A DNA stretch of 37,076 nucleotides from Solirubrobacterales bacterium (GTDB lineage Bacteria; Actinomycetota; Thermoleophilia; Solirubrobacterales; 70-9). Of the stretch, positions 36,080 to 37,076 are shown in pieces. The position numbers were made by a program, and so were the translations under genes. The stretch covers positions 1 to 37,076 of the forward strand of contig JADGPJ010000019.1 in assembly GCA_017882505.1 (NCBI GenBank), read 5' to 3'. The notes beneath the pieces were generated by a model, which saw only the letters and a list, made by a program, of their open reading frames with translations, did not search any database and had not been told where the DNA came from. Positions within the stretch are counted from its first letter, which is position 1, and each line of letters opens with the position of its first letter.

Positions 36080-36415
36080 CTACGCCCCCCCGCTGACCCC
36101 GCCCTCGATGAAGCGCGAGATCGACGCGCTCAGGCCGAGGTCGAGCGAGACCGAACCGCCCGACAGCCGCAGCCGGGCGTTGTCGTCGGTCATCTCGACC
36201 TCCCAGCCGTGAAGCTCCACGTTGCGCAACGCCAGGTCGAGCACCCGGTCACCCCGCTCCTCTCGCGTGTCGCTTATCGGGGTCCGATTTGTCGCCAGCT
36301 GCAGTGCCGCCTCGATCTCCTCGGCCGTCGCTTTCTCGCGTAGGGGCTGCAGGTTGCTGTCGATCTCCGCGGCCACCGGGGCCAGCGACAAGTCCATTGA
36401 AGCCTTCGGTCGCAT
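36080..36415 (-). CDS. Small conserved-looking protein of unknown function
   Basis: A 111-residue soluble protein with no signal or membrane segment. The N-terminal half is helical and charged (ATAEEIEAALQLATNRTP); the C-terminal half reads as strands (RNVELHGWEVEMTDDNARLRL, first 19 residues typical beta pattern) ending SISRFIEGGVSGGA. The SD AAAGGTGG lies 4 nt before ATG 36415, which supports a real gene. No family recognised. Confidence 0.6.
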   Translation of the reverse strand: MRPKASMDLSLAPVAAEIDSNLQPLREKATAEEIEAALQLATNRTPISDTREERGDRVLDLALRNVELHGWEVEMTDDNARLRLSGGSVSLDLGLSASISRFIEGGVSGGA

Positions 36416-36965
36416 CCGTCCACCTTTCGTTCAGTTCTATTTCGCCTTAGTCGAGTCCGGCACCTTCGACCGACCCGGCGGGCGACGCCCGACCGGAATG
36501 TTCCGTCGTGGCGCTCAGCGCGACCGTACTACGCCATTCGCTCCGTCGGTGATCGGCCGAGGGAGGATCCCCGCGCTTCGGGGTGTTCTACTCGATCCAG
36601 CTCGGTAGTGGTTAGGGATCCAAATGGGATCAGGCGGGCTCGGCCAGGCGGTAGAGGCTCTGGCGATTGCGGCGAGCCGCTCCCAGGCAGCGTTGGAGTC
36701 CCTGGCTTTCAGCGGCCTACGTCTTTGCTACACGCATTGATCTTCTCCGGGGACGGCGCGCATCATGTCCTCCATCACTGCAGAAAGCGGCCGGTTCATC
36801 CGTGGCCGGCAGACCACGGCCTTTGGCTCGATTCGCAGCAACTCCGAACACTCGACACAGTCCTCGACGGATCGGTATTCGCATGAATGCGGACAGCAAA
36901 CCTCGTTATCTAAGCCTCAATCCACCGCCCGATCACACCTGATCCGTCCGGCTCGGTCATGAAAA
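36416..36965. other. Non-coding or decayed stretch of about 550 bp
   Basis: No ORF here has an SD, a leaderless -10 box or recognisable protein motifs, and composition appears less GC-rich than in the neighbouring genes. A short hairpin, CCCCG-N5-CGGGG (36569-36583), is followed by TGTTCT and could terminate plus-strand transcripts. I see nothing else that can be named. Confidence 0.4.
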
Positions 36966-37027
36966 TGACCTCCTGAGCAGGCAAATAGCGGCTGATTCGG
37001 CAGCCGCGGCCTGACATCAGGAGGTCA
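36966..37027 (+). promoter_or_regulatory. Long hairpin sequestering the Shine-Dalgarno site of the next gene
   Basis: Three stacked stems: TGACCTCCTGA (36966-36976) with TCAGGAGGTCA (37017-37027), 11 bp; CAGGC (36978-36982) with GCCTG (37009-37013), 5 bp; GCGGCTG (36988-36994) with CAGCCGC (37001-37007), 7 bp with a 6-nt loop. The outer 3' arm contains AGGAGGT, the SD of the ATG at 37033, so in the folded mRNA ribosome access should be blocked. It could be a translational switch, a thermosensor-type leader, or the protected end of a mobile element. Confidence 0.7.
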
Positions 37028-37032
37028 CTCAC

Positions 37033-37076
37033 ATGGTGAAGGTCTTTGCGGGGCCCGTGCGTCCCGACTCGGTGGG
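37033..37076 (+). CDS. Start of a gene running off the window
   Basis: ATG 37033 with the perfect SD AGGAGGT 7 nt upstream opens a frame to the window end, reading MVKVFAGPVRPDSVG. Fifteen residues are too few to identify the family. The SD lies inside the hairpin described at 36966-37027. Confidence 0.6.
   Translation, partial: MVKVFAGPVRPDSV

Follow-up and report, generated by a model that had tools for sequence, protein, structure and literature searches.

A ribosome-site-hiding hairpin at the left end of an IS1380-family insertion sequence: a probable guard against outside transcription

The window analysed here, the whole 37,076-nucleotide stretch of DNA, makes up contig C50 in a draft genome; its last position, 37076, is the contig end, where a transposase gene can be read for 14 codons only. 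The gene lies downstream of a long hairpin (36966-37027), which the sequence-only reading had placed before an unknown gene, proposing a regulated or mobile left end. Comparison with relatives identifies the region 36915-37076 as the left end of an IS1380-family element, comprising the terminal repeat, the leader and the first 14 transposase codons. The features are as follows:

36910-36914, forward strand: CTAAG, probable left copy of a 5-bp target duplication (by the NTWAG-type duplications of complete relatives; the right copy would lie past the contig end)
36915-36931, forward strand: left terminal inverted repeat, CCTCAATCCACC... (by homology with contig C14 and the repeats of the copy in genome G021)
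36961-36966, forward strand: GAAAAT, predicted -10 element (-10 score peak across the window's clade)
36966-36976, forward strand: 5' arm of the outer stem (anti-SD), TGACCTCCTGA, a perfect 11 bp with 37017-37027
36978-36982, forward strand: 5' side of the middle stem, CAGGC, 5 bp with 37009-37013
36988-36994, forward strand: 5' side of the apical stem, GCGGCTG, 7 bp with 37001-37007
37001-37007, forward strand: 3' side of the apical stem, CAGCCGC, pairing with 36988-36994
37009-37013, forward strand: 3' side of the middle stem, GCCTG, pairing with 36978-36982
37017-37027, forward strand: 3' arm of the outer stem, TCAGGAGGTCA, holding the Shine-Dalgarno (SD) sequence AGGAGGT and pairing with 36966-36976
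37033-37076, forward strand: start of the IS1380-family transposase gene, MVKVFAGPVRPDSVG..., cut by the contig end (by its match to contig C132 of genome G010 and the relative in G021)

Upstream of the element, a minus-strand ORF has its upstream end at 36415, and the ~490 bp between this ORF and the left end (36416-36909) hold no convincing gene. The earlier statement that the preceding 550 bp lack genes was therefore roughly right, the terminal repeat beginning at 36915.

The last 99 bases of the window recur exactly at the end of another contig of the same genome, C25, and a diverged copy is found at the end of a third, C14. Homology with C14 starts at ~36910-36915, at CTAAGCCTCAATCC (36910), and the flanks differ. 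The shared contig ends with differing flanks indicate that the window breaks off within the left end of a repeat: the element is multicopy, and the assembly could not pass it. In the relative G017, several contigs also end within the same leader.

Assignment to the IS1380 family draws on the relatives. The transposase start at 37033 is 96% identical over 53 bp to G010:C132 (loci L006/L021), itself a degenerate, internally deleted relative in which the transposase start and a right-end-like repeat are kept and the leader hairpin is lost. The copy in G021, in which the left end and the leader are the same, is bounded by perfect inverted repeats of 17 bp (CCTGAATCCACCGTTTC/GAAACGGTGGATTCAGG) and encodes an IS1380-type DDE transposase, a 435-residue protein scoring 320 bits against the IS1380 family model NF033539 (cut-off 180, E=1.7e-95) and also matching PF13701. 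Terminal repeats beginning with CC, a mark of the family, are present in this copy, the window holding the left repeat only. Target duplications of 4-5 bp, another such mark, are seen in complete Conexibacter and Paraconexibacter copies, where they are 5 bp long and of the NTWAG type (e.g. TTTAG/TTTAG, CTAAG/CTAAG), the window copy being without its right end. As expected of a multicopy element, three left ends occur in this genome (C50, C14 and C25), and Conexibacter sp. DBS9H8 carries six near-identical full copies.

The hairpin consists of an 11-bp outer, a 5-bp middle and a 7-bp apical stem, nested as first described and at the same coordinates. AGGAGGT, at 37019-37025, does lie within the 3' arm, with the ATG at 37033 7 nt further on. 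The low chance that had been attributed to such pairing is borne out by folding, as the segment 36950-37050 has a minimum free energy of -48.4 kcal/mol, against -30.95 +/- 3.32 for shuffled sequences (z -5.26; 0/200 shuffles as good). In RNA read through from outside, the predicted probability that the SD of the window is unpaired is 0.00.

Compensatory changes in homologous leaders, proposed at the outset as the check on this structure, were found by pair counts, arm swapping and a covariance model. Leaders of relatives were gathered by genome and contig searches, the contig scan using a protein alignment of four closer sequences, as a first alignment was too diverse. A long hairpin with the SD in its 3' arm is present in nearly all leaders close to the window's and also in many from distant actinobacterial elements with only 25-50% protein identity, and its arms vary by clade: TGACCTCCTGA/TCAGGAGGTCA in the window, GTGCCTCC/GGAGGCAC or GGTCTCC/GGAGAC in Acidimicrobiia and GGTGTCC/GGACACC in others. 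Among 23 leaders of the window's clade, 88.9% of cells are standard pairs, vs 24-55% with slid partners; 30 cells are doubly changed (shuffles, 8.8), and the covariation score reaches 0.186 (shuffles, 0.087; 0/500). Most of this signal comes from the apical stem, in which both sides have changed among relatives in 5/7 pairs; the outer stem of these leaders is nearly invariant, since it accommodates the SD.

For the Acidimicrobiia leaders, a plain MAFFT alignment was unfit for RNAalifold, and both this failure and the weak outer-stem pair counts arise because the stems are out of register. We used instead an alignment-free arm swapping, in which the 5' half of one member is paired with the 3' half of another. 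Native combinations were more stable than swapped ones in the Acidimicrobiia clade (-36.9 vs -25.4 kcal/mol, mean cost 11.5) and in the window's clade (-41.8 vs -36.6 kcal/mol, mean cost 5.2). In addition, a covariance model of the window's clade matched leaders of other IS1380 clades at the expected place (L042, E 2e-8; L116, E 4e-8; L107, L034, L155 and more), and no match was obtained in 12 IS110/IS256 control loci. Leader stability at z <= -3 was reached by 9/22 IS1380, 0/25 IS110 and 2/19 IS256 leaders, the controls being from the same phylum; the two control families thus have neither the hairpin nor exceptional leader stability.

Named elements with an SD-hiding hairpin are ISRer1, elements of Mycobacterium, Streptomyces and Pseudonocardia, and IS1678 of Enterococcus faecium, the single case outside Actinomycetota and one identified by folding alone. 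In IS1678 (L163, on an E. faecium plasmid), the hairpin is A/T-rich and located just 5' of the ATG (~510-590). No such hairpin was found in some IS1380 members, namely ISEcp1, ISEnca1 and several deep-branching actinobacterial copies, and none was clear in IS1380A. In the distant IS1380 relative L038, a second, very G+C-rich hairpin (CGCGCCCCGGGCTTGCCGGGGCGCG, ~1400-1450) lies upstream of the SD-hiding one and could slow or stop incoming transcription.

The position of the element's own promoter bears directly on the role of the hairpin. When 26 leaders of the window's clade were scored for a -10 element, the maximum fell exactly at the offset of GAAAAT (mean 4.27 bits; next best -1.07), and a TCCG block 10 nt upstream of this predicted -10 is conserved, while the spacer between them is not. 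The clade hexamer, NNNAAT, has no A fixed at its second position, and a typical -35 was not seen. The hexamer of the Acidimicrobiia and actinomycete clade, NANNAT, is located just inside the 5' arm, in a bulge; its A and final T are invariant in 45/45 leaders, the facing strand varies, and as a -10 element it scores 4.0 at its one offset (next -0.04). In ISRer1, the hexamer at this position is TGGGATAAT. Since the -10-like hexamer occupies a fixed place within or next to the 5' arm, transcription from the element's own promoter probably begins inside the anti-SD arm or downstream of it; in the window, the native start is predicted at ~36973-36976. Across 23 leaders of the window's clade, the predicted probability of an unpaired SD is 0.0006 in read-through RNA, against a median of 0.60 when the RNA begins at the predicted start; in the other (Acidimicrobiia/actinomycete) clade, RNA beginning at the predicted start gives 0.35 vs 0.17. 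The gain in access upon 5' truncation is partly automatic.

We consider it likely that the hairpin is a guard of the IS10/IS50 kind, its full 5' arm being present only in mRNA read in from outside, in which it hides the ribosome site. A polymerase coming from a neighbouring host gene would enter the element and produce a transcript with the whole hairpin; the SD of this read-through mRNA would be locked in the 3' arm, and little or no transposase would be made. The -10 of the element's own promoter would fall at the base of this arm in the window's clade and in the bulge just within the 5' arm in the Acidimicrobiia and actinomycete clades; mRNA made from this promoter would begin inside the anti-SD arm or beyond and keep the SD mostly accessible. 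Such a guard would probably limit excessive jumping of the element, with a presumed benefit in avoiding transposition driven from outside. The feature by which these guards are recognised, a transposase ribosome site within a stem of the read-through RNA, is present here by prediction and is accompanied by covariation. A start downstream of 36976, which the sequence-only reading had counted against the hairpin, is no refutation of insertion-sequence protection, since it comes close to what that mechanism requires of the own promoter.

The main rival turns on the position of the mRNA start. The hairpin might also be part of the element's own mRNA and keep transposase translation constantly low, perhaps being opened by an antisense RNA as in IS200 or ISPpu9. 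Leaders that hide the SD are known in both elements (PMC12594629; PMC8450116), and a promoter could fit into the ~50 nt that separate the hairpin from the terminal repeat; but the sole conserved -10-like hexamer lies at the base of or inside the 5' arm, a position from which transcription would start within that anti-SD arm or downstream of it, and we regard this explanation as rather unlikely.

We give very little weight to the palindrome acting as DNA, either as a subterminal transposase-binding site or as a cruciform at the left end. Its location ~50 nt inside the left end and the conserved TCCG block adjoining it would suit such a role; yet protein sites keep their sequence, whereas these stems change and remain paired, the SD is always within the 3' arm, and the G-U pairs among the stem variants favour RNA over double-stranded DNA. 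A signal-sensing leader, whether riboswitch, RNA thermometer or under protein control (the sequence-only reading had listed the first two and a protein-bound operator beside insertion-sequence protection), would likewise have a long hairpin occluding the SD, but is the least probable explanation of all, as nothing in Rfam matches above threshold, the alignment is without a conserved loop or aptamer-like nucleotides, the stems change freely and stay paired, the structure is very stable (~ -48 kcal/mol), and the association is with transposases across many taxa. Of that list, insertion-sequence protection is the option favoured by the IS1380 transposase, the covarying stems and the placement of the -10-like element.

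The other two copies of this genome count against the guard proposal, as the 5' arm is missing in both (2/3 copies). In C14 (L018; reverse strand, last 154 bases), the terminal repeat is intact and a 23-nt deletion (GAAAATGACCTCCTGAGCAGGCA) removes the 5' arm; the deletion junction leaves CATAAT, a fair -10 hexamer. In C25 (L017; reverse strand, 1-1750), the leader is fused to one end of an IS66-family element, at a point that also costs it the outer 5' arm. Predicted SD unpaired probabilities are 0.29 and 0.33 for the C14 and C25 leaders, i.e. partly free, vs 0.00 for the window. The loss of the arm in these copies may reflect chance, assembly or selection for unguarded copies. More tentatively still, and with rather less confidence than in the guard itself, one could picture a single IS1380-family-wide palindrome, with the promoter in its 5' arm, that would serve to initiate native transcription and to silence mRNA read in from outside, the arm-less copies then being unguarded alleles whose transposase is activated by neighbouring transcription.

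In C25, the IS66-family element is ~1.65 kb long and has its end precisely at CAGGCAAATAGC within the IS1380 leader; on its other side it is flanked by a tRNA-like stretch and not by the rest of the leader, which shows the junction to be rearranged. In three other genomes, IS66-type ends (ACTGAACGGTTAC or ACTGAACGCTTAC) abut an IS1380 leader (L082:1-40; L153, upstream of the transposase; L150:95-125), and the leader sequence right after them is TTAAATGACC or TTAAATGTCC. These junctions suggest that IS66 elements have repeatedly been joined at or near the IS1380 leader.

The proposed mechanism is of a known kind, and the RNA element matches no Rfam family: a scan returned sub-threshold chance matches only, none above the gathering score. 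Literature searches for a leader structure in IS1380 found no paper. The guard hairpins on transposase mRNA known so far belong to a few model elements. Compensatory change allows one to be followed here in Solirubrobacterales, Acidimicrobiia, Mycobacterium, Rhodococcus and Streptomyces, and Enterococcus may hold a further case. Its presence across so much of a large family speaks for outside transcription as a general selective problem of IS1380 elements. The covariance model can also mark IS1380 left ends at contig breaks, and the natural arm-less copies provide material for testing the guard proposal.

In IS10 and IS50, the ribosome site of the transposase is covered by a stem-loop that only transcripts coming in from outside can form, and the element's own promoter starts transcription inside the 5' arm. 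The window element resembles them in that the transposase ribosome site is hidden, here by prediction, by a stem-loop of the read-through RNA. It differs from them, members of the IS4 group, in its transposase family and its unrelated sequence, in the covariation by which the hairpin can be followed through much of the family, and in an own start that is a prediction only. In IS200, a stem-loop in the 5' part of the tnpA transcript sequesters the ribosome-binding site, the structure being within the element's own transcript and acting together with an antisense RNA (PMC12594629); IS200 is an unrelated element. In ISPpu9, the structured leader of tnp is long and buries the ribosome site, mutations that weaken it leading to a 26-fold rise of a reporter; opening of this leader is aided by the antisense RNA Asr9, whose effect a second RNA counteracts (PMC8450116). 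Within its own transposase family, the window element is unlike ISEcp1 and ISEnca1, which are without an SD-hiding hairpin, and IS1380A, where none is clear, and it shares both the transposase family and the kind of hairpin with ISRer1, IS1678 and the mycobacterial and streptomycete IS1380 members.
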